DNA of 64,000 nucleotides from Siphonodentalium dalli (lineage: Eukaryota > Mollusca > Scaphopoda > Gadilida > Siphonodentaliidae), in NCBI GenBank assembly GCA_032622095.1, contig CP136065.1, positions 203,804,618-203,868,617 of the forward strand. The letters run 5' to 3'. The notes beneath the pieces are model-generated. The model was not told the origin of the DNA. It worked only from the letters and a program-made list of their open reading frames with translations, and did no database searches. Position numbers and translations under genes: made by a program. Positions within the stretch are counted from its first letter, which is position 1. Each line of letters starts with the position of its first letter. This document shows, piece by piece, positions 4,468 through 55,671 of this stretch.

Positions 4468-4495
4468 GAACAGATACTACACTTTGATCTTAGCC
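4468..4495 (-). pseudogene. 28-nt U2 snRNA target-site fragment
   Basis: On the minus strand this reads GGCTAAGATCAAAGTGTAGT followed by ATCTGTTC: the U2 region around the branch-site recognition sequence, with one extra A. It spans both LINE insertion points without a poly(A) tail. One edge is fused to a truncated family A ORF1 (4,496-4,824), the other to unrelated DNA. Confidence 0.85.
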
Positions 4496-4824
4496 GCACG
4501 CCCTTAATCCTTGGACCACAAAATCCTGGTTTATGTGGAACGGCAACCACATCACTCTCACTGTAAACTTCCGCTGCCAGAAAGGTTGGAAATTCACACT
4601 GATTCCGGTAGTTGAATCCACTATCGGGACCGCACACAGCCCAGCCTGGTAGTAGTCAAAGTCCGCCTGCTATGTAAAGACGAGGTACTGGACCTTACTC
4701 AGATCTACAGCTTCCTTCAGCAAGGCCATCAGGATTTGTCCGTTCACATGTCCACGATTCTTTCCATATACATTCAACTGGAGGGTCTATTCTAGACCCT
4801 ATCCTCCATCACATCGTCCACCAT
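4496..4824 (-). pseudogene. Family A' LINE ORF1, 5' remnant
   Basis: The minus strand from the ATG at 4,824 encodes a divergent copy of the ORF1 N-terminus seen at 11,470-12,036: MEDRV near the start, then, near the end, a stretch like the KxTVKIMWVPYHVN block of the better copies (here KFTVRVMWLPFHIN). A TAG follows MEDRV and further damage is visible. The frame is cut off at GLRACG, where the 28-nt U2 fragment begins. ORF1 proteins of this clade are RNA-binding nucleocapsid-like proteins. This piece cannot make one. Confidence 0.75.
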
Positions 4825-4898
4825 GGATACGTCCCTGGCGGAACACAATAAAACAATAACCAATCAAAATAAGTAGGTCACACTAGCAAAATTATCAA

Positions 4899-4925
4899 GA
4901 TCTAGCCAAAAGGCCGAGAAGCGAT
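4899..4925 (-). pseudogene. U2 snRNA 5'-end fragment (copy 1)
   Basis: The minus strand reads ATCGCTTCTCGGCCTTTTGG then CTAGATC, the first ~27 nt of U2 snRNA (canonical CTAAGATC lacks one A here). It sits directly upstream of the 5' end of the LINE remnant, as in the other insertions. Unlike the others, the DNA upstream of this copy (from 4,926) does not match the conserved U2 spacer. Confidence 0.88.
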
Positions 4926-5504
4926 ACCAGTTTAGGTTTTCAATTCCAGGTCACTGTTCAAATCCACGACAGGAAATGGTTTGAATTAAACGCGCTTTAT
5001 TATTACCATGTATATATAAGTACAATAACAACAACACACTTTATACTTGCGTTTTGTTAGCTATATGTTTTCCCATAACACCACTAATAAATTTCACTAC
5101 ATGGAAATTGGCCCGAATATAGGGTGCAACAGACTGCGTACGTAATATCATAAATGGAAAGACCATTACTTCATGTACGAAAATTGAAATTCGCAGCTGG
5201 ATCATGAGATAAGTATACGTATCAATATAAATAAATAAAGGTAGAGCTACACTACCATGCGAGAAATCAAAACAGCCGGGTAACGGTAGAACGCACATAC
5301 CAGGCGAAACAAGAGCACACGCGCAACCACGCAGAGGTAGAACGAACCTAACATGCGGAACACGCATATCAATAACCGGGGTCAAACCACTCGCACTAGC
5401 CGAAATCCAGGGACGTTCCGAGGTCGGGTGGGGGTCGCAGTAGAAAGGCCATAATTCGGTTAGAAAATCCGGTCGTTGTATATACATAGTGTGTTAGATT
5501 AAGA

Positions 5505-7190
5505 TTTAGGAAGAGATATCCGGTGGAACCCCCTCCTGCGCGAGACTGGGGGTGCCGGACACGGCACTGTTCCTGGCGTCCAAATTCGCTCTTTAACTCA
5601 TTGTCGGTAGCGAAACCGCACTGGTCGTTCGGCTGACCCATAGCGTCGGAGACGGCATCACTATCGGGATGCTTGTCCTCACTAAAAACATTAAACTCTG
5701 GTGCCTCCTTAACCACATATTTGGCGGAGCGTGGGTCCTCCTCGATCTCGTCATGCGAACTGCGCGTTTGCTTCCGGAGCGAAGAAAGGTCACCACTGGC
5801 ATCCATTTTTCCCCCTTCCGGAACGACGACAACTTTTGGCGTAGTGTCCACTTCTGGTTCTACATTTGCGTCCTTGGCCTCGGGGCCCCTGTGCTGGGAC
5901 CTCGGGCTGTGTGTGCTGTGTGGCAGCAGCAGACTTCTGTACTGAAGCCAACTTTAACACCTCGCTCTATTCTGCTGTCTTGTCCATGTACTGGGGGTGG
6001 CGTTTAGGACCTACTCCCCCGTTCCCACTACGCATGGGGCAGCTGGGATCACTGCGGACGTGCCCCTCCCGCCAGTCGACATAAATTTCAACTCAGTATA
6101 TCATCTGAGTCGATCAGGACTGGCCGGAAAGCTATTTCCAGACATTGGGGATATACCAGGAAATTCCTTGTTTTGATTGGAAGCGGTACCAGAAACCGCT
6201 AACCCTGATTGGCTAACCGATAACAGCTGCACGTGTCCCGTAAAAATAGCTCAGGTGTCATCTGTATACAGCGAACGCAATAGTCGTTTAACTCAGTCAT
6301 GTGGCACTGATTTAAAGTTAGTTTTAATAGTCGTATTGATTTTGACCAGCTGCTTTATTAAAGAAAAACACTTTTGGCAAATGGCATGATTCTGATCGGC
6401 GGCGAAATAACTGATGCCGATATTCAGTGTTCTGTACTAGTAAATATCTGCCTCTCGTAACATTCCAATACAACCGCATAAATTATTCCTTATTTGGAAC
6501 GTATGTGACATCAGTATGATGTCACGATATTGGGGGAAGCCCATTGTTCTGGAAATGGGTTTTTACATGAATTCGTGTCGACGTAATATTATAATTATTA
6601 CGGAGATGTTTACGTCGACTGCCCTCCCGCTAACACAGAGGCGGCCGCCCTGGCACTGTTATAAGCATCTTCATGCCATTTTGGAGTTCTACCACGTCGG
6701 GAATGCTATTAAAACGCAGCGGATCACTAACAAATGTTACACGCTTAACCCCGGTCCCGATACCGTCGCCATCCTTCTCCTCAACTACGTCCACACTTTC
6801 GCCAAAACGGTCGAAATAACGCCCCCGGAAACTGTCCTTGACATACAAGGGCAGCCAGTGTACTTTCACAATGAACTTCTGGCGGGATTGCGGGTAAAAG
6901 TCATACAAATGGTCATTGCGCCTTGACCTAGTGGCCCCAATGTTGTTAAGTGTGGCAGGCCTGGCGTCGGAAGTAGAATCTTTAACACAATATCGTCCAT
7001 TTACCAGAGGACTCAATTAAGGAAATGGATTATGTCCCTGCGCGAAGCGCGCTTCCCCGTGCAACTAACCCGTGTGCAGCAACCTAACATATCTTGGCTA
7101 ATTAGATATAATGGTATTATCTCTTTCTTTGTTGTCATCTTGATCGTGATTAGAACTGATCTGATAACTACAGGGGTGACCGGAGACTAC
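5505..7190 (-). pseudogene. Family B ORF1 (gag-like), broken
   Basis: Homologous to the ORF1 of the other B copies. The N-terminal segment (about 7,020-7,190) has the RRDVVDFL-like motif. The middle (6,630-7,016) contains the block NNIGATRS...HLYDFYP and VKVHWLPLYVKDSF, and the C-terminal part (5,505-5,851) is acidic and lysine-rich. A 549-bp DNA element splits the protein just before its CCHC zinc knuckle, and a deletion near 7,020 joins the N-terminal part out of register. ORF1 would coat LINE RNA; this copy cannot be translated whole. Confidence 0.75.
6073..6621. mobile_element. 549-bp MITE with 9-bp target duplication, Mutator-like
   Basis: The terminal inverted repeats are CAGTCGACATAAA and TTTACGTCGACTG (13 bp, one mismatch). 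The flanks are a 9-bp duplication CCCTCCCGC at 6,064-6,072 and 6,622-6,630. The empty site is visible in the homologous B copy at about 54,330, which confirms the insertion. A 9-bp duplication suits Mutator-like elements; Merlin is an alternative. No transposase is encoded. Confidence 0.85.
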
Positions 7191-7333
7191 CCTTGCAGCT
7201 GGGTAATGTCCAGCAGGTAGCCAGCCGTTCCGGAACCCCTGAAACGTTTGTAAATACACAAAAGCCCCCGTCGAGTCCCTCCCTGGCTTGTATAGCTGGT
7301 CACATAAAGATCATTTCCAGGGTACACACAGGG

Positions 7334-8436
7334 TAGTGCTGTGCGTCGGATCCGACATGAACCCAAAATCCGATCCGACAGCATTTTTGAAAATCCGAAT
7401 CCGATGGCTATTTTGAATCCGATCCGAATCCGAAATCCGATGTCAATTTTGAATCCGAATCCGATGTGTATCGCTAAATCCGATCCAAAATCCGACCTGA
7501 ATCCGCAACATATAAATTGCAAATAGTGTGACATCGTGTAAAATGTGTGTCTCAACATCAAACTTTTGTTGCTGAGGTCAAGGGATGGGTCATTGGGGTG
7601 AAGGGGGACTATAGAGTGCACTACTCAGTGTAGAGTGTAGACGCATATAAGAAAAGTTTAACGGGATGATCGGGATTGGGGATTCGGGAATCTGGAACTT
7701 TGTCCTAACTTACATGTACCTAAGTGGCAGTACTGTAAGTGTAAGACACTATGTAGTAAGTACAGTGTAAGTGACATAGTGGTACGAAGTTACGAACTAA
7801 CAAAACATCTGTACTCTGTACTCTAGTCTGTACTGCTCTGTAATTTAAGTTGATGGAGTCTGGAACGACTGGACGGATTGGTGTATGTAGTCTGTAGTAC
7901 TTGTACTGTAGTACTATCAAAACTATGTATGTATTTTTTATGTAATAAGTACGAAACGGTCATACTATATTCATCCGAAGTTCGAATTAATATAGTATAA
8001 TAGTATATACAATTATACATAGCCTACTTAATAAGTAGGCTATGTATAATTGTATATATTCAGTTCTGAGAAAATGTGTTTTCACGGAATCGTGACGTCA
8101 GATTTCCTAGAAATTTCGTCTGACCTTGACACACTAAGATGGCAGTAAGAGTAGCCTACATTTATATAGGCCCTACGTTTAATCTGAGACTCTTGAGACT
8201 GAGTTAAAAACTTAGAATCCAAGTTATCCACCCCATAAATGTAACATGATGGAGATTGGTTTGTACGGTCCGATCCAGACGATCCAAATCCGACAGCATT
8301 TTTGAAAATCCGTCTCCGAATCCGAATCAGACGACAATTCTGGATCCGATCCGGATCCGAATCAGATTTTTTAAACATTGTAAATCCGATACGAATCCGA
8401 TCGGATTCGGATTATCGGATCCGACGCACAGCACTA
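7334..8436. mobile_element. hAT-like MITE with TAGTGCTGTGCGTCGGATCC ends, 1,103 bp
   Basis: The ends TAGTGCTGTGCGTCGGATCC and its complement form terminal inverted repeats. Many short ATCCGA/CCGAAT repeats lie inside both ends. The homologous B sequence at about 61,615 lacks the insertion. TAGNG ends suggest hAT, but the 8-bp flanks do not match well, so the superfamily is tentative. The centre holds GTAC-rich simple sequence and a perfect 55-bp palindrome. No transposase is seen. Confidence 0.75.
8004..8058. repeat. Perfect 55-bp palindrome
   Basis: Two 27-nt arms containing ATACATAGCCTACTTA and its complement, separated by one base. It lies inside the MITE at 7,334-8,436 and would form a cruciform or hairpin. 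Confidence 0.9.
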
Positions 8437-8666
8437 ACAGAACACGGGAGTCCGAGAAAGAGCCCTAGGTGGGCTCCCCGAGATGTTACGCTTGTTAGGC
8501 AACTCGCAGAGCACCGAAGAGATGCATTGGATGCATAGCAGAGCTCCTTTGTCAGATATGAGAATCTGCCTTGGGACAGTGGCCTGTAATTTTGTTTAAG
8601 GCACTGATGTCACTTTAAGACTTTTAAACAACTCGACCAATTGGCTAGAAACAACCGACCTTTGTG

Positions 8667-8676
8667 GAACAGATAC
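8667..8676 (-). other. 10-nt U2 remnant between two LINEs
   Basis: The minus strand reads GTATCTGTTC, matching U2 immediately 3' of the family B insertion point. It joins the poly(A) tail of the element at 8,677 to the 5' end of copy B1, and is best read as the target duplication of B1. Confidence 0.8.
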
Positions 8677-9069
8677 TTTTTTTTATATATATAAAAGAAC
8701 TCCGTATACCGGTCTAAGGCCCGAGGGCACAAGACCGGGACCACTCCGAGGACTCGTCAACATCATGGTCCTCCTGGACCCATCGTGATATTGGGCAATG
8801 CCTCTTTTCTTGGGCTTGATGTTAAGCCTTCTTTTGTGGGCGCAATGCCTCTTCTCGAGTCATCTTTTTCTGCTTTGTGATGTCTTTTCAAAGCGACCTT
8901 GTATATTTTATCAAGGATTTTGTTAAAATGTATACATTAATACATTTATAAAAACTGACCTTTATAGTCTGTTATGAGGTCACGAATGACTACAATATAA
9001 AGAAAAATTATATAAGTAACAAGACATATACTGTCAGTTGTCATCGGATACTTTTGATGTGGCTATGAA

Positions 9070-9744: not shown

Positions 9745-9745
9745 G

Positions 9746-11361: not shown

Positions 11362-11437
11362 GGTGACGTGCCTGGCAGACGGTACAAAAAACACAATTGA
11401 CCAATCAAATAATTAGGTCATGAGACACAAATCAAGG

Positions 11438-12107: not shown

Positions 12108-12135
12108 GATCTTTGCCAAAAGGCCGAGAAACGAT
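12108..12135 (-). pseudogene. U2 snRNA 5'-end fragment (copy 2)
   Basis: The minus strand reads ATCGTTTCTCGGCCTTTTGG then CAAAGATC. It differs from consensus at the fifth base or so (ATCGC to ATCGT) and where CTAAG has become CAAAG. The U2-type spacer and promoter lie directly upstream (12,136 onward), and the LINE leader directly downstream. Confidence 0.93.
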
Positions 12136-12674
12136 GCCGATTTTTCGCGAAAATTGGGCCATTCAGCAGAAACCGTCGAGAAAATGGACATGAATCCTGA
12201 AAAAGAAAGAAATATGCATGAGAAGCGAAGATGGCGAAATTCCGGTGTTTTGCATGAAGCATGTGTTCGGATTTTGTTACAATTTAGAATAAACACGAGA
12301 ATTTCATCATTTTTTTCGCGACTCCATTTGAGACGTACGACGTACGTTCTTCTGACTCTATTTAATACTGTACTGTTGATCCATTATAAGCTCATCGAGT
12401 CGTGCAAACCAAAATGTTGCGAAAGATGCTGAATGTCACGAAATCTGAACCTTACTTTTTTGCAATAGTTTTCTTTGCATTTGTGAAATAACGTCAAGGG
12501 TGATTTAGAATAAACGTTGTTCATTGTAATATGAATGCAATGCAAACGCTCTTTATCAACAATGTGTGGTATCTGTTCTTATCAGCATGACATCTAAACA
12601 TTCCAAATGAAACTCTTCCATGTCAGAAGGTACAGAGAAGTTGGAGGGGGGGAACTAATTTTAGATTATTTAAG
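12136..12674 (-). repeat. U2 array intergenic spacer, copy 1
   Basis: 539 bp between the start of one U2 and the 3' end of the next. It is homologous along its length to 42,425-43,004 and 48,768-49,349, but has lost about 40 bp near 12,185. It carries the upstream promoter region at its left end, and an AACGCTCTTTAT motif at 12,545-12,556. No other snRNA gene is recognised in it. Confidence 0.9.
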
Positions 12675-12831
12675 AACGGGCCGATCCCGGAGGTACTGCA
12701 ATACCGGGTCAACCCGTGGCGAGGTTAGAGCAAGCTCTAGGCCACTCGCCTACAGTAAAAAATCAGTTTAATATCGAAGTCCCCATTTGGGGACGTATCA
12801 GATATTAAGCTGATAAGAACAGATACTACAC
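12675..12831 (-). pseudogene. U2 snRNA 3' part (copy 2), split by a LINE
   Basis: The minus strand starts GTGTAGTATCTGTTCTTATC directly after a LINE poly(A) tail and runs to the conserved 3' end with GGTATTGCAGTACCTCCGGG. The branch-site recognition bases GTAGTA and the hairpin GTCCCCAAATGGGGAC are intact. The Sm site reads ATTTTTTA rather than the ATTTTTGA of the other two copies. U2 pairs with the intron branch point in the spliceosome; this copy lacks its first ~30 nt. Confidence 0.95.
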
Positions 12832-13269
12832 TTTTTTTTTTTTTTATAATACGAAATAATAATACAGGTTTTACAAATAATAACGATGACAAAAATACAA
12901 ATACAGAATAATACGGTGAAATAACGTAATAATTGGGAAGCTGGCTAACTGCCAGCACCGTACATGCCCCCGCTCCGATTAAAAACAGACGAGTCTGCGA
13001 TATCACAGGTTTGGAGCGAGGGCGAGAGAGCAAAAACGAGTTGGGGGATAATTCTTACCCACCCAACTCCCCACGAAGATAAAGACAAAAATACAATACA
13101 GAGTTACCCATCCCACGCCGCAGAGACGATAAGCGTCCTGCGACTTAGGATGGATAACTCCACGGAAAAGTTAAATGTCAATAGAGTTATCGGAAATCTT
13201 CTTCTTAAAGGTACTTATACTTATCAGAATGTAAATTCCACTTTGTCGTTCGAAACGCGACAGATATCA

Positions 13270-14930
13270 GCCGTTACCAGCCAGTATCTGTCGAATTCCG
13301 AACTGTGGAGGCGCTCGTGATCAACGAGTATGCGAATACGCAACCGATTAAGATAATCAACAATAAGTTTTTGTGGGCGAGTGGGGCCTTTCCGAAATTT
13401 GGCCTCGTTACGAAAATACCAAATGGTGCTAATTGCTTCTGTGAGAAGAACGAGAATAGTGGCTTTGTGATGCCTGTCAAGATTTATGGGTAACTGTAAA
13501 AAGCGGACTGTTTTGGCGAGAGGTCAAATGACTGTTCTGGGCGTTATGTTATTGACCCACTGAAATATAAGTCGCCATAAAGGTTGGACCTCGGCGCAAA
13601 AACAAAATAAATGTTCGTGAGATTCATCTTCTGCACGACAAAGAGGGCATACTTTATAACGTAAGATTTATAAATGATGAAGGAGTTGATTATGTAAATT
13701 GTTCTAAGTCGTGCCAAAGTGAATAAGGGGATATTTGTTAATTACAATAGGGGGCTTGACAATTGCACTTAGAAAGTCCAAGTAAAATTGTTTCGTAGTG
13801 AAACCATCAAAATTAAAGTCTGGACGGATTTTTAAATATTTTCTAAGGGCCACCATTACCTTGGTATAAAAAGGGGGTGGTTGTTCTGAACAATGGGGAA
13901 TTAAATTAGAACCAAATTCAGGCCTAAAACGGACCAGCGATAGACTTATCCAATATGTGACAAAACAACCCCATCTGATATTGGGGAATTTCATGAATCT
14001 CTGCAGATGTTGCATGAAAAATGCGTCAAGTTTGGACGGAATATGAGAAAGCCCGGTCCCTCCCCGCAGTTTGCTTTCGCAAACCGTGAGGCGGGACAGG
14101 GGTTCCTGCTTATTCTCCCAAATAAATTTATGCATCTTTGAATTAAAGGAACATAGATATGCAGCAGACAAAGGGATGACAGAACAGTAATACCAGATTT
14201 TCGACAGGGCATAAGTATTAACAAGGACGGTACGGGAGAAGGGGGTCAGTTTACGATCAAATGAATTTTGGAGTACACCAGAAAATTTAGAAAGAAGATT
14301 GTGAAAATGACCATCAAGTGTAATATTATTTCCATATTGAATTCCAAGAAGTTTTTGATGCGGGACCCAGCGTAAGCCATGTGGCTTGTCAGTGCGATCC
14401 CTCCAAGAGCCTAAAAATATTCCGGCTGATTTGTTCAGATTTAATTTAGCGCCGGATTTCCTTACCAAAAAGGGCGCAGTTAGATAATATATGTTCAATG
14501 GAGTTGTCATTAGTGACTATCGTGGTGACATCATCCGCATACGCAGCTAGCTTTATCGGTTCAGTGGAACACTGAACCGACAAACCCAAAATCTGCGTAT
14601 CCGAACGGAATTTAATCAAAAGGGGCTCTAAACAGAGGACGTACAATAGTGGGGAAATACTGCATCCTTGGCGTACTGATCGCGTGACGGGGAAAAGTTC
14701 AGAAATAAACTGATTCACAATAACAGACGAAGTGATGTCACTGTAAAAAAGTCTAATCCATGAAATAAATTTGGGGCCGAACCCATATGCCGAAAGGGCA
14801 CGAAAAAGATAAATATGATCTACTCGATCAAAGGCTTTAGCTTGATCGAGGGAAATAAGGGCGCACCTAATATTTTTATGATTAACATAGTCAATGAGAT
14901 TCCGCAATAAATGGGCATTATCCAAAATTA
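13270..14930 (-). pseudogene. Family A ORF2, C-terminal half (reverse transcriptase, zinc finger)
   Basis: Contains reverse transcriptase palm motifs SLDQAKAFDRVDH, RQGCSISPLLYVLCLEP and the catalytic YADD box (AAYADDV), then the thumb and long C-terminal region (FLGSWRDRTDKPHGL, QRFMKFPNIRWGCFVTYW). Near 13,600-13,655 a C-terminal zinc finger appears as CPLCR...HEHLFCFC, typical of this clade. It is broken by a frameshift near 14,480 and by the deletion that removes the endonuclease. It cannot yield an active enzyme. Confidence 0.85.
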
Positions 14931-15336
14931 GAGTTCACCGTCATGTTGACTAATTTAGTTCCATTAGCCACACTGCTCCCTCCCATATAGCTCGTGTCGT
15001 CACGAATCGAGTGGATCTGCGTAGTTGCCCAACACCCTGGAATAAATGTCTGATCGAAGAAAAAACGGTACCCACAAAAGTTTCACAACTATTTCCTTCG
15101 TAAAAAAAGGCTGAAATGACATTCCGATCCCGTCATCTGGAAACTCCAGCGTCCTGAGAAATTCCAAGGTATCCATGTACTATACATGACTGAACGTCCA
15201 CCAAGGTCATATCAAAGTCTTTCTTAAGCAAATCTCCCATCTTCTCTGTGGTCATCCAGTATTTGTTCACTCCGTCCACCTTAATTTCCACGGTCCTGGC
15301 CGCCCTAAACTCATCGTAGAGCCCGTCAGCCGCCAT
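14931..15336 (-). pseudogene. Family A ORF1 N-terminal fragment
   Basis: The ATG at 15,336 gives MAADGLYDEFRAARTVEIKV, matching the ORF1 start at 42,314. After about 60 residues (MGDLLKKDFDMTLVD) the frame breaks, and the homology continues in other frames to the deletion junction with ORF2 at about 14,930. Confidence 0.78.
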
Positions 15337-15410
15337 AGCTGCATCCCTGACTGGCGGGAAAAACTAGATCAATTAGCGAAAGTAGGTCACTTAATCAATC
15401 ACGTCAGAAA

Positions 15411-15445
15411 TCACTTTGAACTGAGCCAAAAGGCCGAGAAGCGAT
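15411..15445 (-). pseudogene. U2 snRNA 5'-end fragment (copy 3) with target duplication
   Basis: The minus strand reads ATCGCTTCTCGGCCTTTTGG, then a slightly altered CTCAGTTCAAAGTG. Past base 30 it continues into an AAGTG...TCTGA-like sequence that resembles the AAGTGTAGTATCTG target, so part of the target duplication is retained on the LINE 5' side. Confidence 0.9.
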
Positions 15446-15547
15446 GCCGATTTTTCGCGAAAAAAATCGGGCCATTCAGCAGGAACCGTCGAGAAAATGG
15501 TTTTAATAAAAGGTGTGTCGTCATCAAATCCCAGGAATCGACATGAA
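15446..15547 (-). promoter_or_regulatory. U2 snRNA upstream promoter region
   Basis: About 100 bp upstream of U2 copy 3 is conserved with the other units: a near-palindrome (CCGATTTTT-CGCG-AAAAATCGG type) at positions -2 to -28, then GGTTCCTGCTGAATGG-like and CATTTTCTCGACGG sequence where a proximal sequence element is expected (about -40 to -60). Homology to the spacer stops near 15,547, so the array ends here. The PSE assignment is by position only. Confidence 0.6.
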
Positions 15548-15591
15548 ATATAAAAAAAAATGGCAAAGTAACGCCGGTTTACGGTACTAGT

Positions 15592-33117: not shown

Positions 33118-33400
33118 TTTTTTCTTTTTTTAAAGGAACTCCGTTAACCGGTCTAATGTGCTTGGGCTCAAAACTGGGATTAGTCCAATGACTGGTCAAC
33201 ATCATGGTCCTCCTGGACCCATCTTGTATCAGTGGGCTCTTGGCCTCTCCTTGGGCTTAATAAATTAGCAATCTTTTGTGGGCACTGTGCCTCCTTTGGG
33301 TTGTACCGGTATCTCACCTTCCGGTATTTCTAAGGGTTTTTATTTTTTTTATTTAAAATAAAATGTATATAATAGATTTTATTATAAACTAATTTTTGAT

Positions 33401-34250: not shown

Positions 34251-34255
34251 TATGG

Positions 34256-35799: not shown

Positions 35800-36213
35800 T
35801 AATGGGCGCTGGATGTGCTACCAACCTACGCCCACCCAATGGCCAGGCTCTAAAAATAAAACGCTCTCTGCGAACGAACTCCGCAACACGGGACTTCACA
35901 GAAAGCGAAACATCAGAGTACACATCCATATACCAAAGCAAGACCACCCCATGAAGGTTGCAATTACCTGGCTATGAAACACTCCATGCTCAAGATACGT
36001 ACCTTTGACACCACCAAGCAGCACGCGACTAAAGTACATATAAATATGAAAATAACACAAAACAATAGTAAGAACCGGGGTCAGACCCCTCGATGAAAGA
36101 ATGAATCGGAGACGGTCGTTGGTCGAGTGAGAGCCGCAGAAGAAAAGCCGTGAATCGAGCGACGTAAGCCGGGTCGAAATTATCCAGATTATCAAGAAAC
36201 CAAATCGAAAGAG

Positions 36214-37674: not shown

Positions 37675-38075
37675 TTTTTTTTTTTTATAAAAAGTTTTAT
37701 TCAGATAATACGAAATAATAATACAGGTTTTACAAATAATAACGATGACAGAAATACAAATACAGAATAATACGGCGAAATAACGAAATAAATGGAAAGC
37801 TGGCTAACTGCCAGCACCGTACATGCCCCCGCTCCGGTTAAAAACAGACGAGTCTGCGATATCACAGGTTTGGAGCGAGGGCGAGAGAGCAAAAACGAGT
37901 TGGGGGATAAATCTTACCCACCCAACTCCCCACGAAGATAAAGACAAAAATACAATACAGAGTTACCCATCCCACGCCGCAGAGACGATAAGCGTCCTGC
38001 GACTTAGGATGGATAACTCCACGGAAAAGTTAAATGTCAATAGAGTTATCGGAAATCTTCTTCTTAAAGGTACTT

Positions 38076-40209
38076 TAGGTCTTTAAGGTCATTAGTGACT
38101 ATCGTGGTGACATCATCCGCATACGCAGCTAGCTTTATCGGTTCAGTGGAACACTGAACCGACAAACCCAAAATCTGCGTATCCGAACGGAATTTAATCA
38201 GAAGGGGCTCTAAACAAGAGGACGTACAACAGTGGGGAAATACTGCATCCTTGGCGTACTGATCGCGTGACGGGAAAAAGGTCAGAAATAAACTGATTTA
38301 CAATAACAGACGAAGTGATGTTATTGTAAAAAAGTTTAATCCATGAAATAAATTTGGGGCCGAACCCATATGCCGAAAGGGCACGAAAAAGATAAATGTG
38401 ATCAACCCGATCGAAAGCTTTAGCTTGATCGAGGGAAATGAGGGCGCACCTAATATTTTTATGATTAACATAATCGATGAGATTCCGCAATAAATGGGCA
38501 TTATCCAAAATTGACCTTCCGGGAACGCCACAAGTTTGGTCAGAATGCACTAAAGTGCCAACGACGTCCCGGAGGCGGTTTGTGAAAATTTTCGAAAGAA
38601 TTTTATAGTCATAATTCAGTAGACTGATAGGGCGATAATTTGAAACGAGTTCGGGGTGCTGGGGGTCTTTCAAAAGTAAAACAATAAGGGACTGTCGCTG
38701 CGAAGCTGACAGCTGACCTGAAATAAAACAATTATTGTATAAATTTTGTAGTGTGGGCGCGATGTAATCAAGGAATGTAAAATAAAATTCCTTGCCCAAC
38801 CCATCACTACCCGGAGACTTATTGTTCTTCATTTGCGATACCGCAGTTTTAATTTCATCTATGGATATAGGGGCTTCGCATAAAGTTTGGTCAGAAGACG
38901 ATAGTTGGGGCAAGTCAGTCAAAAATTCTGAACAAGCAGAATTATCAATTGGCTCAGCAGAGAAAAGGTGAGAATAAAATTCCCTAAATTGAGTTAAAAT
39001 ATCACGAGAATCTGTGTAGGTATGATCATCTACAGTAACAGATTTAATAGTTTTACTGGAACCACGATGATTCTCCATCCGATGGAAGTGCGGGGAAGTG
39101 GATTCCTGAGAATCCAACTCCCGCGCACGAGATCGGATGAAGGACCCGTGTTCCAGCTCCAAATATAAATCGTGAAGTTGCGTGCGCAAAGCTGTAATTT
39201 GTTCTGAATAATTACCAGGATTGAGTTTTTCCGCTGAGCAAAGTTCAAAATATTGTCGTTCAAGACTGCGTATCATAGATTTATGCGAAAAAGAAAGCCG
39301 TTTGCTATGTGAAGTTATAAAGGACTTCACCTGCCCCTTGACCCCCCTCCCACCATTCGGACGTCACGTGACGGCAGAGGCGGTCACGCCCGACGTGAGA
39401 GAAGACCAAAAGGAGACAAAGTCCTTCTGGAAAGTGCTATCGCGTAAAGTTTTAGCATTTGCTTTCCAGTAACCGCGTCCGAAAGATTGACAATTAAATT
39501 TCTTTATGCGGAACGAAACGGCATCATGATCCGACAAACAGTCTACAATTTGTTTAAATGAAGAAACAGAAGATAACAAGGACTCGGAGACGTAGAACCG
39601 GTCGATCCGAGAAGCGCTACCTCCCCGAGTCCAGGTATACTGTGTTGCTGTGGGTTCGAGATGGCGAAATATATCTTTCAAATGATAATTAGTCCGAATT
39701 GTAGCCCATTTCCGGGACACAGGGAGGACCCGGTCGTGACCAATCCGATCGAGCGATACGTCATCGACAAAATTGAAATCGCCCCCGACAATGGTCGGAC
39801 GCACAGAGACCAAGTGGGGTACCACCCGATCGAAAAAGTCACGACGAGGCCCCCCGCTGTCGTTAGGACCATAAACATTAATTAGCCGAAGTGGTTGATC
39901 ATCAAAAATTATGTCAAGAACGACCATGCGTCCATCTGTGTCAAAAAACTGCTTAGTAACTTCAATATTTAAATGAGGAGATATGAGGATAGCAGCACCA
40001 CGGGCAGTGTTGGTACCGTAGGAATAAAAACCTTTCATGTCAAGTGTAGCATTTAAAGATAACGCATCTAGCTGGCCCAAAATATGCGTTTCTTGCAAAA
40101 ATATGATGTCGATCGATTGGAAGCGAATAAGCATTTTCAACATGCGCTGTTTTTGTGTACTGCTCAGCCCATTGCAGTTAAGGGACGCTATGTGTAAATT
40201 CGCCATCAT
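38076..40209 (-). pseudogene. Family A ORF2 (APE endonuclease and partial reverse transcriptase)
   Basis: The ATG at 40,209 starts MMANLHIASLNCNGLSS. The endonuclease motifs LQETHIL, VGGDFNFVDDVSLDRIGHDR, RIDRFYVSES and LSDHDAVSF are all present. A 5-bp insertion near 39,360 (CGTCACGTGACG where sister copies have CGTGACG) shifts the frame. The reverse transcriptase then reads NNKSPGSDGLGKEFYFTF, NYRPISLLNYDYKILSK, SLDQAKAFDRVDH and SVRQGCSISPLLYVL before a frameshift. YADD-region sequence persists at about 38,115 but the thumb and zinc finger are deleted. It would target U2 if intact. Confidence 0.9.
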
Positions 40210-40978
40210 GCTAGCAATTTAAGGGAAAAAAGACCACAGCAACAGCAGCGAAACTAAATAAACGAATAAAAATAATAAAGAGCGTTTGGTGAACTCGGTC
40301 GACCGGTGAACCGCGGCGTACCGCTGCACACCAGCCGACAAAGAAGGCCCCCGCGCTAACCAAAACAAACTGACAGAAGAGTGCAGGGTCACCGAGTGCT
40401 GTACACTCGGATGACCCAATGCAAATAAGGACGGAAAATCAAGAAGGTGCGGATGGCATAGCGACAAACGCGATCGATCAGAAAACAGTCTAAAACGGCC
40501 GTAATCTGGTCGACCGCACTCGCCGATATACCACCCACACACAATGCAGATTAAAGTAAACAAAGAGACAGCGCGACAACCACGCCGGTCAGTCAGCGAA
40601 CAGCGGATTACCGGTGTACGAGAACCGCCCGGCGAAGTCGACGCTCTGTCAACAATGCATAAGAGTGCAGGGTCACCGAGTGCGATAATACACTCTGGTG
40701 ACCAAGCACTAAAGCGACAGAATAAAATAACGTTGAGCGGACAACGCAGCGACATACCCGATCGAGCAGAAAACAGCCTAAATCGGCCGTAATCTGATCG
40801 ACCTGGCACGTCGATACGCTGTCCACCCAGAACAATAGAAAATAAAAGTACTTCGCCAAAACACTGGCGAATAGAAGGGAAATCAGGGACGGTCCGTGGT
40901 CGGGGTGGGGATTGTTGTAGAAAAAAGAAAAATTCCGGGTACACAGTTCCAAGAATAGTTGTATTAACATTTGGTGAA
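40210..40978 (-). other. Family A inter-ORF region
   Basis: About 0.77 kb between ORF1 and ORF2, homologous to 9,746-10,449 and 46,984-47,380. It holds two diverged copies of a segment containing TCTAAAACGGCCGTAATCTG-like sequence (near 40,490 and 40,780) and an ATAAAGAGCGTT motif at 40,275-40,286. The open frames on it are not conserved. Confidence 0.6.
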
Positions 40979-42314
40979 TCACATCTCCGACATCTCCGAC
41001 ATCACCGAATCATGGTCTGAAGGACCACCCTCCTCATCCGGTCCAGCATTCACGTCTGCCAATGTCTTCTTGTATGTCTCTCTTGATTTGTTGGACGATG
41101 TCGATGCGGATCTCTTCAGGGGGTTCGGCGTCCCTGACGTGTCCATGGTAGGAAACTGTCCATGGTAGTGACGCACTGTCGGAGAGTCCAAAATCAGAGG
41201 CCTGGACGGCAGCCTGGGTCGCGGTAGACAAATCTACCGGACCAGGGCCGACCTGGCTGGCCTCCCGGGAGGGAGGGAGCGCATCAACAGGGTGCGAGGC
41301 ACCCTGCTCGGAATCAAGGGATTCCGTGACCACAGTGACTACCCCCAGTGTCGCGGAGGAAGGCTCCGCCGGAGGGACTGAGGTGGGAGGCTTATCCCCC
41401 TGTTTCACAGTAGAGTCCTCTACTGGAGTGACAGGGGTCGCTCCCAACTTACCAACAGGGGTGACGTCCCCCTGCTGCTGGTCGGTTATCGAAACCGCCA
41501 GCTCCTCCCGTGTCGCAGTGGATTCCATCTCCACTGGAGGGACCAGAGGGGAAGACTTATCCCCCTGTTTTGCAACAGGGGTTGCTTCCTTCGCAAGCAC
41601 AACAAACTCGTTTTCTCCGATCTGTATCGAAGATCCACTGAGCGCCTCAGCATAACTCAACCTCGGTGGGGGGTGCCTTCTAGTGCCAGAAATGACGTCA
41701 CGTTCCTTCATTCTCTGCTCCACCCTCTTGGGACAGAGCTCCCAGGTCCGGGTGTGCCCCACTCCCCGGCAGGCGAAGCACAAAGGCGGTCTACCTTTGA
41801 TTACGATAGGGATAAACTGTCCATTTGATGTGTCGATTGAATACGGCATTAAATCGATGCGGTTACTATTGACAGTCATATGAACCAATTTGGTGCCATT
41901 GGCCACGCTGCGTCCCTTCACGTAACTTGTGTCATCCCGAATGGAGTGAATCTGGCCATAGTTCCCCAGGACACGAGAATAGACATCGGATCTAATGAAG
42001 AACGGAACTCATAACAGCTTGATCACAATTTCCTTCTTAAAAAACGGGGATAGCTGCATCCCAATGCCAGCCTCCGGAAACTCCAAAGTGCGAATTAACT
42101 CATAAGTGACCATGTGCTGGATGTGGTCAAAGGTAAGATACCACGTGGTGGGCCGTGAAAGTCTGAACAAAGCATCCACCACGCCCATATCGATCTCCGT
42201 TCCGAGCAGGTCGCCCATCTTCTCGGTAGTCATCCTATACTTGTTTGCACCGTCGACTTTAATCTCGATGGTGCGCGCCGCAAGAAACTCATCATAGAGC
42301 CCGTCAGTCGCCAT
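40979..42314 (-). pseudogene. Family A ORF1 (gag-like), one nonsense codon
   Basis: The ATG at 42,314 gives MATDGLYDEFLAARTIEIKV. The first ~100 residues include MGDLLGTEIDMGVVDALFRL. A TGA at about 42,006-42,008 replaces a Trp codon (sister copies read LLWVPFF). The rest is readable downstream: the knuckle CFACRGVGHTRTWELC (CX2CX4HX6C), a repeated KQGDK/PP-rich region, and a C-terminus ending near 40,979 after an apparent frame change around 41,100. Otherwise well preserved. The role is RNA binding in the LINE ribonucleoprotein, inferred from the clade. Confidence 0.85.
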
Positions 42315-42383
42315 AGCTGCGTCCCTGACTGACGGGAAAAACTGGATTAATCAGTGAAAGTAGGTCATGATAATTAATCAAGT

Positions 42384-42424
42384 CAGATACACACTTTGAC
42401 TTAGTCAAAAAGCCGAGAAGCGAT
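42384..42424 (-). pseudogene. U2 snRNA 5'-end fragment (copy 4) with target duplication
   Basis: The minus strand reads ATCGCTTCTCGGCTTTTTGA then CTAAGTCAAAGTGTGTATCTG. It therefore runs through the LINE insertion point and includes a GTGTGTATCTG copy of the target, while GTGTAGTATCTG reappears beyond the poly(A) side of family A insertions. This is the clearest target duplication of the family. Confidence 0.93.
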
Positions 42425-42530
42425 GCCGATTTTTCGCGAAAAAAAATCGGGCCATTCAGCAGGAACCGTCGAGAAAATGTTTTTAATAAAAGGTGTGTCG
42501 TCATCAAATCCCAGGAATCGACATGAATCC
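42425..42530 (-). promoter_or_regulatory. U2 snRNA promoter region
   Basis: Immediately upstream of the U2 start is a near-palindrome CCCGATTTTTTTTCGCGAAA then AATCGG (-2 to -28), then TTCCTGCTGAATGG and CATTTTCTCGACGG at about -30 to -60, where animal snRNA genes carry the proximal sequence element. All four linked units share it; the 12,136 copy has a damaged palindrome. PSE identity is by position, not by consensus match. Confidence 0.6.
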
Positions 42531-43004
42531 TGAAAAAGAAAGAAATATGCATGAGAAGCGAAAATGGCGAAATTCCGGTGTTTTGCATGAAGCACGTGTT
42601 CGCATTTTGTTACAATTTAGAATAAACACAAAAATTTCGTCATTTTTTTCGTGACTCCATTTGAGACGTACCACGTACGTTCTTCTGACTCTATTTAACA
42701 CTACTGTTGATCCATTATAAGCTCATCGAGTCGTGCAAACCAAAATGTTGCGAAAGATGCTGAATGTCGCAAAATCTGAACCTGACTTTTTTGCAATAGT
42801 TTTCTTTGCATTTGTGAAATTACGTTAAGGGTGATTTAGAATAAACGTTGTTCATTGTAATATGAATGCAATGCAAACGCTCTTTATCAACAATGTGTGG
42901 TATCTGTTCTTATCAGCATGACATCTAAACATTCCAAATGAAACTCTGTTCCATATGAGAAGGTACAGAGAGGTTGGAGGGGCAACTAATTTTAGATTAT
43001 TTAA
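42425..43004 (-). repeat. U2 array intergenic spacer, copy 2
   Basis: 580 bp joining U2 copy 4 to the 3' end of the next U2. It is nearly identical to 48,768-49,349. The U2-proximal ~100 bp holds the promoter; an AACGCTCTTTAT motif lies at 42,876-42,887, some 120 bp downstream of the neighbouring U2 3' end. No additional RNA gene is recognised. Confidence 0.93.
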
Positions 43005-43162
43005 GAATGGGCCGATCCCGGAGGTACTGCAATACCGGGCCAACCCGTGGCGAGGTTAGAGCAAGCTCTAGGCCACTCGCTTACAGTCAAAAATCAGTTT
43101 AATATCGAAGTCCCCATTTGGGGACGTATCAGATATTAAGCTGATAAGAACAGATACTACAC
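43005..43162 (-). pseudogene. U2 snRNA 3' part (copy 4 neighbour), split by a LINE
   Basis: The minus strand starts GTGTAGTATCTGTTCTTATC after a LINE poly(A) tail and runs to CCTCCGGGATCGGCCCATTC. The branch-site recognition sequence, the GTCCCCAAATGGGGAC hairpin and a standard Sm site (ATTTTTG) are intact. The first ~30 nt are 5.6 kb away at 48,740-48,767. Confidence 0.96.
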
Positions 43163-43526
43163 TTTTTTTGTTTTAATTAGTTTATTCGATGATACTAAAG
43201 ATTACATGGATATACATGGATACAAGGTAACAGTTACATAAGAGTACAGTAATATAATGAAAGGAATGCAAAGCTGGCAATCTGCCAGCACTGTACCGGT
43301 CCCCGCTCCGAATAAAAACAGACGAATCTGCGGTATCACAGGTTGGAGCGGAGACCTTACAAACAAAACAAGTTTGGTAATAAATATTACCCACCCAACT
43401 CCCCTCGAAAAATTGTTGGATAGAGTTACCGATCCCGCATCTCGGAGACACAAAGTTCTCCGCGATGCAGGAAGGATAACTCCAACGAATCCGACGAAAA
43501 GAAGGCCGACTATAGAGTGCTCGGTA

Positions 43527-46500
43527 TTAGAAATTAAAGGTAACCTTGTTGTCGGCCGAAATTTGACAGATATCATCCGTGACCGTCCAATACCTGTCAA
43601 AGTCCGGCCGAGATAGGCGACAGAAATCCGCTAAAATGCGAATCCTGAGCCGATTCAAAAAGTTAACAAATAATGTGTTCACATGCGTGCTACCTTTGTG
43701 AAATTTGGCCTCGTTCCTGAGGTACCAAATGGCGCTAATGGATTCCGTAATAAGGACCAATGTAACTGCACGATGGTGTCTACTGATGTTGGTAGGAAGT
43801 TGTAAAAACCGGATAGTTGCACATACATGCCGAATTTCAGTATTGGGATTGAAATTATTAACCCACATGAATATCAGACGCCATAGTAACTGAATATTTG
43901 GACAAAAGCAGAATAAATGTTCAATTGTTTCAATTTCCTTCTTGCATAAGGGGCATAATTTATAGGTTGTCATATGGAAGGAATGTAACAGATAATTCAC
44001 TGGCAGAATTTCATGGATGACACGCCAGGTGTCCTTACGACCGTGAGGTCCTATAAATGAATGGTGTAAATTGGACCAAGTTTTGGCAAAATCAATTGTA
44101 GGATATCTGTTAATGATGCGTGGCGGATGAATAATTTTTTAAAGAAACCCTTGATAAAAAACCTTACATGAAATATCATTACATGAAAGATTTGGTTTTA
44201 TTGCCAAGTATATTTTCAAGGCTTTAAGAACGCTGGCATAAAATGGTGGTGGCAATTCCGAAGAATGGGGTATCAAATTTGAACCAAATTCTGGACGAAA
44301 TTTACTGAGGGAATGACCGATCCAATATTTAACGAAACATCCCCAGCGGACATCTGGAAACATAATTAACCGTTGCAAGTGCCTCATGTAAAAGGCATTC
44401 AGCTTGCTAGGGATGTGAGAAAGTCCTGTTCCGCCACTCAGTTTATCGTGATAAACTGCTTGGCGGGCCAAAGGGTAATTGTGGGAAGGTAATTCCCACA
44501 AAAAGTTAAACATTTTAGAATCAAAATACTTATTGTATGCACGGGATAATGGGATGATGGAGCAATAATACCACAATTTCGATAATGCAAAGGTATTAAT
44601 AAGCGTGGTTCGATTAAATGGTGACAATTTTCTGTCAAAAGCATTGCGTAATACACTGGAAATTTTTTGGAGCAAGTTATGGAAAGGACCATCCAAAGAT
44701 ATGTCATTAACAAACTGAACTCCAACAATTTTCTGATGTGGAACCCATTGTATGTTAAACGGTTTGTCTGTGCGACCGCGCCAAGAACCCAGAAAAATAC
44801 CAGCTGATTTCTGTAAATTTAATTTCGAGCCAGAGGCCTTACCGAATAAAGTGCATAATAAAAGTAATTTAGCCACTGAGCTAGTTGTAGTAACCACTGC
44901 GGTGACGTCGTCCGCATACGCAGCGAGCTTCACCGGTTCAAACACTGAACCTGATAATCCTACAATCTCCGTATCCGAACGAAGCCGCTGCAAAAAGGGT
45001 TCTAAACAGAGAACATATAAGAGCGGGGATATGCTGCATCCCTGTCTCAGAGCGTGTCGCGGGAAAGGGGTCCGAAATGAATTGATTAACAATCACAGAA
45101 GAAGTAACATCTGTATAAAATAGTCTGACCCAAGAAATAAATTTAGGGCCGAAACCAAAAGCCTGTAATGTCCGAAATAAGTATGTGTGATCAACTCTAT
45201 CAAAAGCTTTCGCTTGATCTAAGCTAATAAAAGCGCATGGAATATTCTTTTGGTTGACCACGTTACGTAATAAATGAGCATTGTCAAGAATGGTGCGCCC
45301 CGGAACACCACAAGTTTGATCCGGGTGCACCAAACTTGCAATGACATTCCGTAAACGGTTCGCAAATATTTTGGACAAAATTTTATAGTCATAATTCAAT
45401 AGGCTGATGGGACGATAATTAGAAACTAATTCAGGATGATTGGGGTCTTTGAGAAGTAAAATAATAACGGACTGTCTTTGTGACTTTGTTAAACTGCCAG
45501 AATTAAAACAGTTATTGTATAACTGAAGAAGTGTCGGTGAAATCAAATCCAAAAATGTATAATAAAATTGACGGCCTAAACCGTCATCACCAGGTGATTT
45601 ATTATTTTTCATGTCAGACACTGAAGTTTTTATTTCCTCGATAGTTATGGGAGCATCGCATAAGGCAGAGTCAGTTGCAGATAAATTGGGTAAATCAGTG
45701 AGAAAAGTATCACAAATTGTGTCATCAATTTGCTCAACTGAAAATAATTGTTCATAAAAATCCTTAAAGTGATGAAGAATATCTTCAGATTTAGTATAAG
45801 TATGGTTGTCAACAATGACAGAAGAAATGTCCTTTTTAGAGCCACGGTGATGCTCCATCCGATGAAAGTGCGGGGAAGTGGATTCCTGAGAATCCAACTC
45901 CCGCGCACGAGATCGGAGGAAGGACCCACGTTCCATATCTAAATACAAGTCATGTAATTTTTTACGAATCGCTTTAATTTGATCAGCATAATTACCAGGA
46001 TTAAATTTTTCAGCTGAACATAAGGAAAAGTATTGATTTTCTAAATCCCTAATGACTGATTTTTTCTGGAAAGATAACCTCTTACTGTGAGAAATGATAA
46101 AGGATTTTATCTGCATTTTGACCCTCTCCCACCAATCAGGCGTGACGGCATCAGCAGTCACACCTGAAGTGAGAGAGGACCAAAACGAGAGAAAAGTCTT
46201 CTGAAAAGATAAATCTGAAAAAGTATTGCAATTCGCCTTCCAATAACCGCGTCCTGTGGACTGGCATTGTAATTGCTGAGTTTGAAAGACGATAATGTCA
46301 TGATCAGAAATCCCGGAAACAATTTGACGGAAAGAATGAATTGATGGTAATAATGTAGCAGTTGCATAAAACCGATCGAGTCTAGAAAAACTAGTACCCC
46401 TACTCCAAGTATATTTAATCTCATTGGGATTTAAAGTACGAAATACATCTTTCAACTGATAAGTGTCTTTGATTTTATCCCATTTACGGGCTACCGCGAG

Positions 46501-46983
46501 GACCCTATCGTGACCAATCCGATCGAGCAAAACGCTGTCTACAAAATTATAATCGCCCCCGATAATAATCGGACGCTTAGATACCAAATGCGGAATTACT
46601 CGATCGAAGAAATCACGACGGGGTCCGCCGCTATCATTTGGCGCATAAATATTAATTAGGTGCAAAGGTTGATTATCTAGTGTAACATCTAAAACCACCA
46701 TACATCCATCAGTATCAAAAAAGCACTTGTCAATAGACAGCTCTAAATGTTTAGAAATAAGAATGGCTGTGCCACGGGCTGTGTCAGTTCCAAATGACCA
46801 ATAACCGTCCACATCTAAAGAAGCATTTACAGATGAGGATTCAAGTTGTCCGGAAATGTGTGTTTCTTGAAGAAATAAAATATGTAAAGATTTCATGTGA
46901 ATCAGCATTTTAAGAATGCGTTGTTTCCGTTGACAGCTAAGGCCATTACAATTGAAGGATGCAAAATTAACAGGCGCCATCAT
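43527..46983 (-). pseudogene. Family A' ORF2: APE endonuclease, reverse transcriptase, zinc finger
   Basis: About 1,150 codons from the ATG at 46,983. Residues ~1-230 are the endonuclease: LQETHIS, GGDYNFVDS, RLDRFYAT, SDHDIIVF. Residues ~440-700 are the reverse transcriptase: NNKSPGDDGLGRQFY, NYRPISLLNYDYKILSK, SLDQAKAFDRVDH, RQGCSISPLLYVL and AAYADDVTAV (catalytic YADD). The C-terminal finger is CPLCKKEIETIEHLFCFC. Only two lesions are evident: a frameshift near 45,060-45,085 (before RQGCSIS) and a TAA near 44,139. Intact relatives nick U2 DNA and prime cDNA synthesis there, by inference from the insertion sites. Confidence 0.92.
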
Positions 46984-47306
46984 GACGGTTAATTTTGAGC
47001 GCGACGGTACTACAGCTCGATCTAGATGGACACAACAATACTACAATAAAACCAAACAAAAAGACAGCGCGAAGACAATGCCGGTCGACCAACGAACAGC
47101 GGATTATCGCTGAACGGCGGCCGTCCGGCAAAGTCGACGCACTGTCAACAAACCCTAAGAGTGCAGGGTCACAGAGTGCAATGCACTCTGGTGACCAAGC
47201 ACTCGGAAGGCACAGTGAAATAACACTGAACGGACAGCACAGCGACAAACTCGACCGAGCGGAGAAAAGCCTAATACGGCTGTAATCTGATCGATCGGGT
47301 CCGGCT

Positions 47307-48711
47307 CTACACTGTCCGCACAGAACAAAGAAAAATAAAAACACAAAGAATAAACCTCCACCAAAACACTGGTGGATGAGTGCAAGTCCAGGGACGTTCC
47401 GCGTTCGGGTTGGGGGTCGATGAAGAATAGAGAATGTCCGTATAAGAAAAGTCAGTCACGTACTCCTCGTCGGTCCTGTTGTTGAGGTCGGCGTAGTTTC
47501 GCTTGTAGTCGGTGAGGTCGTCGGGAGGTCGTCGGGAGGTCACGGGAGGTCTCGTGTCCATGTCCGAAAACATACTTGGAGAATCCGGAAGGAATGGATT
47601 CAGGAGGTCTTCCTGTGTCGCGGTGGATAAATCCACCGGAGGGACAGGGACTTCCTCTGAATCTGCCTTCTGCTTCTCAGCAGTGGTGTCCACCACTGCT
47701 GACTCCACAGAAGGGAGCGCACAAACAGGAGCGATGTCGCCTTCGCCCTGCTCTCCGGCATTGAGGGATGCCAGGATGAAATCCATTACCTCCCTCGCCA
47801 TCATGGAGGAAGGCTCCTCCAGAGGGGACGAGGGCGGGCTTATCCCCCTGGTTCGCACCAGGGGGCGCTCCTAGCAACAACGACTGAGGCTGCAGCTCCG
47901 GCGGGGGGTCCCGCGGAACCTCCTGACCAGGAGTTGTCTCGCCATACGAAGCCAATAACTCCCCCGCCATCACGGAGGTGACCACCTCCGGAGAGGACGA
48001 GGGGGAGGCTTACTCCCTTGCCCCACAGTAGAGTCCTCTACTGCAGGAACAAGGGGTGCTCCCAGTGACGCCATAGAAACTCTTGAACCGACAGCAGCGG
48101 CGTACGTCTTCGGTGGGTTCCTCAGGACCCCCGAGGGGTTCTCCCGTTCCTCTGCTGCACGGCACTCGGCCGCCACACGGTTCGGTCACCCCGGTGAAGA
48201 GCGATCGACAAGAAAAGCACATCCTCGGCCTCCCCGGGATAACCACGGGACAAAATCCCCACTTCCCGTAATTTAGAAAGAAGGGGATCAGGTCGAGACT
48301 TCTCGGGGACACGGACATCTCCACCTGGATGTCCCCCGTACAGTATCTGTGTCCGTCGATAACGTTGGTAGAATCCTTCACAGACAAAATCTTCCCATAG
48401 GGGCGCAGTGCCCCTAACACAAATTCCCTGTTTACATGGTACGGCACCCACATGATCTTCACCGTCGTCTTCCTCTCCCAAAACGGCTGGAAATTTACGG
48501 TAAACCGCATAGTGCCACCGTCCACAGGCATGGCACAAAGTCCTGCCTGATAAAAGTCAAAGTCCGCCTGAGACGAAAACACCAAGTACCATATCCCGAA
48601 ACGTTCCATCCTGTATAGTGCCTGGATTTTCGACAGGTCCAGTACATCTTTCAACGCGGCCATCAAGATCTGCCCAGTCACCAGCCCGCGACTCTCTCCC
48701 CGAACATGCAT
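47307..48711 (-). pseudogene. Family A' ORF1 (gag-like), start lost
   Basis: The frame 48,010-48,711 encodes MHVRGESRGLVTGQ, WYLVFSSQADFDFYQ, KTTVKIMWVPYHVNREF and CFSCRSL. The knuckle is interrupted where an insertion/rearrangement follows CFSC. Later frames (47,677-48,176 and 47,307-47,858) carry the PP/Gly-rich C-terminal part and an acidic tail. The native start and leader are missing through the 89-bp deletion just upstream, so the visible ATG is internal. The first 200 residues are almost identical to 11,470-12,036. Confidence 0.85.
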
Positions 48712-48739
48712 CTGCAGTGCGCACCTTAATTAAATCAAC

Positions 48740-48767
48740 GATCTTTGCCAAAAGGCCGAGAAGCGAT
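48740..48767 (-). pseudogene. U2 snRNA 5'-end fragment (copy 5)
   Basis: The minus strand reads ATCGCTTCTCGGCCTTTTGG then CAAAGATC. It is followed directly by the LINE leader (GTTGATTTAATTAAGGTG), with no target duplication kept. Confidence 0.95.
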
Positions 48768-48870
48768 GCCGATTTTTCGCGAAAAAAAATCGGGCCTTTC
48801 AGCAGGAACCGTCGAGAAAATGGTTTTAATAAAAGGTGTGTCGTCATCAAATCCCAGGAATCGACATGAA
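48768..48870 (-). promoter_or_regulatory. U2 snRNA promoter region
   Basis: Same arrangement as at 42,425: CGATTTTTTTTCGCGAAAAA then TCGG next to the start, and the GTTCCTGCTGAAAGG and TTTTCTCGACGG blocks upstream. Confidence 0.6.
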
Positions 48871-49349
48871 TCCTGAAAAAGAAATAAATATGCATGAGAA
48901 GCGAAAATAGAGAAATTCCGGTGTTTTGCATGAAGCATGTGTTCGGATTTTGTTAACATTTAGAATAAACACAAGAATTTCGTCATTTTTTTCGTGACTC
49001 CATTTGAGACGTACGACGTACGTTCTTCTGACTCTATTTAATACTGTACTGTTGATCCATTATAAGCTCATCGAGTCGTGCAAACCAAAATGTTGCGAAA
49101 GATGCTGAATGTCGCGAAATCTGAACCTTACTTTTTTGCAATAGTTTGCTTTGCATTTGTGAAATTACGTTAAGGGTGATTTAGAATAAACGTTGTTCAT
49201 TGTAATATGAATGCAATGCAAACGCTCTTTATCAACAATGTGTGGTATCTGTTCTTATCAGCATGACATCTAAACATTCCAAATGAAACTCTGTTCCATA
49301 TCAGAAGGTACAGAGATGTTGGAGGGGCAACTAATTTTAGATTATTTAA
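48768..49349 (-). repeat. U2 array intergenic spacer, copy 3
   Basis: 582 bp, nearly identical to 42,425-43,004. It has the same promoter-proximal palindrome (48,768-48,795) and AACGCTCTTTAT at 49,221-49,232. Confidence 0.93.
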
Positions 49350-49502
49350 GAATGGGCCGATCCCGGAGGTACTGCAATACCGGGCCAACCCGTGGCGAGG
49401 TTAGAGCAAGCTCTAGGCCACTCGCCTACAGTCAAAAATCAGTTTAATATCGAAGTCCCCATTTGGGGACGTATCAGATATTAAGCTGATAAGAACAGAT
49501 AC
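49350..49502 (-). pseudogene. U2 snRNA 3' part (copy 5 neighbour), split by a family B LINE
   Basis: The minus strand starts GTATCTGTTCTTATCAG after the poly(A) tail, five bases further into U2 than at the family A sites, so the branch-site recognition GTAGTA is itself cut. The Sm site ATTTTTG and the 3' stem-loops are intact. Confidence 0.96.
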
Positions 49503-55665: not shown

Positions 55666-55671
55666 TTAAGG

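Follow-up and report, generated by a model that had tools for sequence, protein, structure and literature searches.

A U2 snRNA gene array in which LINEs interrupt copy after copy raises the questions of how functional U2 is supplied and how such LINEs persist on a low-copy target. The array lies in a stretch of 64,000 bp (C5:203,804,618-203,868,617, hereafter the window) of the 2.2-Gb genome. Rfam RF00004 matched three places in the window (12671-12863, 138.9 bits; 43002-43202, 130.9 bits; 49347-49537, 125 bits), all above the gathering score of 46, and blast with a U2 unit delimited the true U2 3′ parts as nt 29-192, nt 29-192, and nt 36-192, respectively, with 97.9-98.4% identity over U2 and a short 3′ flank. 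In addition, blast located five U2 5′ ends of 28 to ~43 nt (4925, 12135, 15445, 42424, and 48767), and every 3′ part and 5′ end was on the minus strand and joined to LINEs of the L1 group carrying an APE endonuclease and a reverse transcriptase (RT). Three full spacers, 513-554 bp by blast ends, were mutually homologous. On these points the sequence-only reading, which had described three 3′ parts and five 5′ ends on one strand, homologous spacers of ~0.55 kb, and a U2 array split by several nested families of U2-inserting LINEs, was borne out.

The same reading had placed every LINE at one spot in U2, and this did not hold, as two insertion sites ~7 nt apart were found, namely site X (nt 28/29) and site Y (nt 35/36). 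After the LINE poly(A), U2 resumes at AAAGTGTAG (nt 29) in about 14 cases and at AGTATCTG (nt 36) in 6 cases, one of them in an intact array, with insertion positions accurate to 1-3 nt and the junction A possibly coming from the LINE tail. A young site-Y insertion has U2 nt 1-53 ahead and nt 36-192 behind, that is, a duplication of about 18 bp. Moreover, at ~8.67 kb in the window one Y element ends in poly(A), after which come a U2 strip and the start of another Y element, an arrangement read from the sequence as two Y insertions stacked within one U2. The features of the window, all on the minus strand, are as follows.

4468-4495, minus: U2 nt 19-46 within a LINE remnant, a piece of a dispersed U2-derived repeat
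4496-4898, minus: X-type LINE 5′ UTR and ORF1 start (4786-4493)
4899-4925, minus: U2 5′ end, nt 1-28 minus one base; type-A spacer remnant upstream (4926-5090)
5094-8677, minus: remnant (ORF1) of an older Y-type LINE; in front of it lie the 11-nt U2 strip AGTATCTGTTC (8667-8677) and the end, in poly(A), of the other Y element
12069-11452, minus: X-family ORF1, 90% amino acid identity to X1
12108-12135, minus: U2 5′ end, nt 1-28, then the X-family ORF1
12136-12670, minus: type-B spacer
12671-12834, minus: U2 3′ part, nt 29-192, site X junction (Rfam and blast)
12835-15411, minus: internally deleted X LINE, flanked by a U2 5′ end and, at 12834, the U2 3′ part; C-terminal part of ORF2 14928-13227, tail 13077-12902
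15412-15445, minus: U2 5′ end, nt 1-34, with the remnant of a type-B spacer 5′ of it (15446-15560)
33191-35892, minus: older Y-type LINE remnant ending in poly(A), then degraded U2 from nt 36 (about 33115-33082)
37761-42383, minus: X2 LINE; ORF1 42350-41003, ORF2 40218-38094, X-type 3′ tail to about 37761
42384-42424, minus: U2 5′ end, nt 1 to ~43, leader changed from nt 22 on
42425-43001, minus: type-B spacer including the U2 3′ flank and the sequence immediately 5′ of U2
43002-43165, minus: U2 3′ part, nt 29-192, site X junction (Rfam and blast)
43166-48739, minus: X1 LINE, 5′ region shortened; ORF1 48717-47427, ORF2 (APE and RT) 47040-43530 with a frameshift near 45050
48740-48767, minus: U2 5′ end, nt 1-28, then the X1 LINE (blast)
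48768-49346, minus: type-B spacer
49347-49503, minus: U2 3′ part, nt 36-192, site Y junction (Rfam and blast)
49504-61876, minus: Y LINE with its 5′ start near 61876; other sequence breaks into it at about 54730-61281
62268-63710, minus: X-family ORF2 remnant, upstream of the Y element

No U2 3′ part was found after the X2 LINE. The array had been taken to begin at 4468; its five 5′ ends stand, but 4468-4495 was ruled out as an array unit, for it continues into the U2-derived repeat, which is tandem elsewhere in the genome. Likewise, the homology of the spacers holds for the three full ones, all of type B, but the 5′ end at 4925 has a type-A remnant. Rfam also gave short U2 matches of 24 bits at 15381 and 11992; these, like the microRNA matches of the window, were under the gathering score and were discounted as evidence. 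Several side observations are recorded here. The U2-derived repeat comprises U2 nt 1-46, other sequence, and then U2-like GATACGTCCCC, and occurs both in tandem, with a period of about 340 bp, and dispersed (L064, C2:568 kb; L065, C2:221.239 Mb; L066, C4:20.628 Mb), and may be a U2-headed SINE or a satellite. Each full type-B spacer also contains, on the plus strand, an inverted copy of U2 nt 28-63 (86%; 12560-12595, 42891-42926, and 49236-49271), which covers the LINE target site. A near-perfect 109-bp inverted repeat at 25760-25868, with sub-threshold matches to several microRNA models, is probably a small DNA transposon.

The window lies within a split zone of ~1 Mb (C5:203.77-204.76 Mb), where the stretches read contained 34 U2 5′ ends, 22 U2 3′ parts, and no full-length U2. 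At a distance of ~0.5 Mb, an array of near-identical 920-bp units (C5:203.270-203.304 Mb) contained 27 U2 5′ ends, 25 of them in intact genes (Rfam 185.3 bits in 22 and 184.4 bits in 3) and 2 interrupted, and four further intact U2 copies were found (three on C6 and one on C9), these genome counts being lower bounds as only the best candidates were scored. The functional U2 supply, which the sequence-only reading had posed as a puzzle, is thus answered by the intact array on the same chromosome together with the copies on C6 and C9. Split-zone spacers were mostly of type B (about 30 longer copies, 87-98% identity), type A being that of the intact array, and a few U2 5′ fragments were found elsewhere in the genome. 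As separate observations, exactly 5,000 N lie inside the young Y insertion of the intact array (L032/L033, C5:203.29 Mb), representing a gap or a withheld stretch, and U2 copies with type-B-like upstream sequence and a replaced 3′ end occur beside a short satellite at L030 and C8:666-669 kb.

Part of the split zone may have grown through block duplication, since the L054 and L055 blocks are collinear over 8.2 kb at 93% and the order X1-spacer-X2 is repeated in the window, L054, and L055. These observations also favor the further-reaching explanation that the zone arose mainly by unequal crossing-over or duplication of occupied units, with few insertions; we consider it unlikely as a main cause, given that the collinear blocks differ in their 5′ leaders and 5′ UTRs, that numerous distinct 5′ UTRs and two 3′ sites are seen, and that two separate insertions are present in the intact array.

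As for the LINEs themselves, the ORF2 proteins of the X and Y families contain an APE endonuclease and an RT (PF03372 and PF00078, both over cut-off), and the full-length X1 ORF2 (1173 aa) also has a zf-RVT domain. Among solved proteins, the best match of X1 ORF2 was human LINE-1 ORF2p (E 1e-80), with R2 at 2e-25, supporting a placement of these LINEs in the L1 group on sequence similarity; the name Tx1 clade is taken from published descriptions only. Utopia, which the sequence-only reading had mentioned as a described U2-specific element, was rejected for the ORF2s read: these carry an APE endonuclease, and X1 ORF2 had no Pfam match to a restriction-like endonuclease, with an N-terminal APE instead. 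The Y LINE at 49504-61876 resembled the Y copy of the intact U2 array at about 95%, and all five Y 5′ ends found were in the C5 U2 region. In addition, a different non-LTR element with RT and endonuclease ORFs lies within this Y LINE (55926-58748, minus strand), and a related LINE with about 44% amino acid identity over ORF2 forms a head-to-tail array with a ~5.5-kb period at L072 (C5:111.43-111.65 Mb), where many ORF2 copies are near-identical and open.

Among the best candidates scored, all copies with at least 64% amino acid identity to the window X1 query mapped either to the C5 split zone or to C4:20.62-20.92 Mb, and the latter is an array of U1 genes with a 701-bp unit (Rfam U1, 136 bits). 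Here the LINE is inserted after U1 nt 38-41, and its poly(A) is followed by GGCGGTGG of U1. Seven of the eight ORF2 copies scored at C4 had no stop, with an open frame of 1173 aa, and the window X1 ORF2 showed 92.7-95.2% amino acid identity to the U1-resident copies; the U1 units mostly look uninterrupted at the LINE site. The U1-resident copies C4a and C4b had DNA identities of 97.1% to the window X1 and 98.1% to the U2-resident copy at L056 (body), compared with 90.3% to the U1-resident C4c, and in the tree they grouped with the L056 copy (support 99.4/90), separate from C4c and C4d (100/100). Therefore, one family resides in both U1 and U2, and its U1 residents are not one clade. The target motifs are similar, GATC-AAAG in U2 and GATCC-AAAAG in U1.

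The U1-resident copies start with CTCGGACCTTTTTGCTAGTTCAAAGTG or TTCTCGGACCTTTTTGCTAG, which match U2 nt 8-34 and 6-23, respectively; in shuffling, 0 of 20,000 scored as well for the longer form and 2-7 of 20,000 for the shorter. The retention of a U2 piece at the front end of U1-resident relatives suggests that these LINEs borrow the promoters of splicing-RNA genes. Outside U2, four Z-family copies begin with U2 nt 34-51 (two copies) or U2 nt 42-51 (two copies), and one of these, at C5:41.71 Mb, is flanked by duplicated ATTCCCAACATAAAT, a non-U2 sequence. The young Y copy in the intact array reads U2 nt 1-51, six bases ending in G, U2 nt 1-48, and then the LINE, the extra G of this single case fitting a reverse-transcribed cap. 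Across 35 U2 5′ ends, mismatches amounted to 1.8% at nt 1-21 and 21% at nt 22-28, with the step at nt 21/22, and the retrieval of these ends through a pattern in U2 nt 1-21 (up to 4 mismatches allowed) biases nt 1-21 towards conservation. The leader distance tracked the 5′ UTR distance (Mantel r 0.46, p 0.0002), compared with r 0.03 for U2 nt 1-20. Taken as sequence patterns, these results suggest that the U2 leader travels in the LINE RNA while nt 1-21 are supplied by each new target. Furthermore, C4a and C4c have a common leader and different bodies, and two U2 copies have a common 5′ UTR and different leaders; leader and body thus have partly different histories, and the 5′ ends undergo recombination or are made anew.

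It could be argued that both U1 and U2 have been homes of the X1 family for a long time, with no switch from U2 to U1. The scatter of U1-resident copies among U2-resident ones, rather than in one clade, favors such old dual use, and the two U1-resident groups may represent one old dual-target state rather than two moves. We nevertheless find long-standing dual use doubtful as a full account, as a U2-derived leader is present at every U1-resident 5′ end read in which the LINE start is preserved, and non-systematic inspection of U2-resident copies showed no U1-derived leader. The best reading of these sequences is that the X1 lineage moved between U2 and U1, and U2 to U1 is the direction we infer.

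A different objection is that these are ordinary U2-specific LINEs of the Keno type, driven by an internal promoter of their own, and that the 5′ U2 pieces are only target remnants and microhomology. In the account given in PMC4640811, which cites Kojima and Fujiwara 2004, Keno is a U2-specific LINE with an APE endonuclease found in several animals, and the U2-resident 5′ junctions, on their own, are readable in this way. This explanation appears improbable in the face of U2-derived leaders at LINE 5′ ends in U1 genes and non-U2 sites, that is, in targets without U2, and a 5′ UTR of only about 80-110 nt between U2 and ORF1 argues against an internal promoter. That the split genes are assembly artefacts is hardly credible. 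Arrays of near-identical units are difficult to assemble, and the young Y insertion includes a gap of 5,000 N, but the window and L054-L057 contain 0 N, and one and the same junction design recurs dozens of times, with different elements and with spacers and LINEs that have diverged, and therefore does not stem from one local mis-join.

The reading we prefer, with a probability of about 0.74, is that of a target-specific LINE system living on snRNA gene promoters. Several L1-group families with APE and RT insert 28-51 nt 3′ of the U2 start in sense orientation, leaving the U2 promoter and the first 21-51 nt intact ahead of a short 5′ UTR. RNA polymerase II would then start at U2 +1 and produce a capped U2-leader/LINE mRNA ending at the element's AATAAA and poly(A). 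During target-primed reverse transcription, the cDNA end could overlap the target's own U2 5′ end, so that nt 1-21 would come fresh from the target and the leader 3′ of nt 21 would be inherited. As the U2 part behind each insertion still contains the target sequence, the same gene can take up a second, stacked element. Selection and homogenisation would preserve the one 920-bp array, and an older LINE-occupied block would have become the ~1-Mb graveyard. The X1 family would also have entered U1 genes at the similar motif, with uninterrupted X1 copies now in U1. As a more specific proposal, to which we give slightly better than even odds, the lineage would move between U2 and U1 via chimeric RNAs, made from snRNA promoters and consisting of an snRNA leader and the LINE, with the former home recorded in the inherited leader and annealing of the cDNA to the snRNA 5′ end building the 5′ junction.

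Capture of an snRNA promoter would thus offer a sequence-level answer to how a LINE persists on a low-copy target, and where one snRNA array is filled or dead, another snRNA gene can house a near-identical element. With elements 97-98% identical in U1 and U2, target switching is testable inside one genome. Moreover, an essential gene array is here divided into two blocks on the same chromosome, one intact and homogenised, the other dead and filled with parasites.

With regard to known systems, LINEs that target U2 have been described before, as have arrays in which disrupted U2 genes exceed intact ones (PMC4640811). As of that paper, the listed inserters of snRNA genes were only Keno and Utopia (U2) and Dada (U1 and U6). 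Utopia is a U2-specific LINE with a restriction-like endonuclease, and in Phytophthora and Nasonia disrupted U2 genes outnumber intact ones (PMC4640811), so that on this point the window is less unusual than first claimed. Utopia and the present LINEs have in common the U2 target, several families per array, stacked insertions, and disrupted genes exceeding intact ones; they differ in endonuclease type, and U2 resumes at nt 39 in Phytophthora Utopia versus nt 29 or 36 here. Dada-U1 elements also insert in U1 genes but are DNA transposons with an unrelated mechanism (PMC8869645), unlike the LINE found here. Among the open-access papers searched, none described a LINE in U1, a LINE family shared by U1 and U2, the inheritance of snRNA leaders, or LINE transcripts from snRNA promoters. 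Keno, as far as its published description goes, resembles the present LINEs in having an APE endonuclease and inserting into U2 snRNA genes; judged by nt 39 of Phytophthora U2 for Utopia, the 3′ flank published as common to Keno and Utopia probably begins several nt downstream of site X and slightly downstream of site Y, and close relatives in U1 and inherited snRNA leaders set the present LINEs apart from Keno as described. R2 lives in 28S rRNA genes, and a ribozyme releases its RNA from the 28S transcript. The likeness to R2 would lie in a home in a tandem RNA gene and in the dependence on host-gene transcription proposed here, and the difference in the fate of the host sequence, as R2 RNA is ribozyme-cut whereas the host leader is apparently kept on the RNA in the present system.
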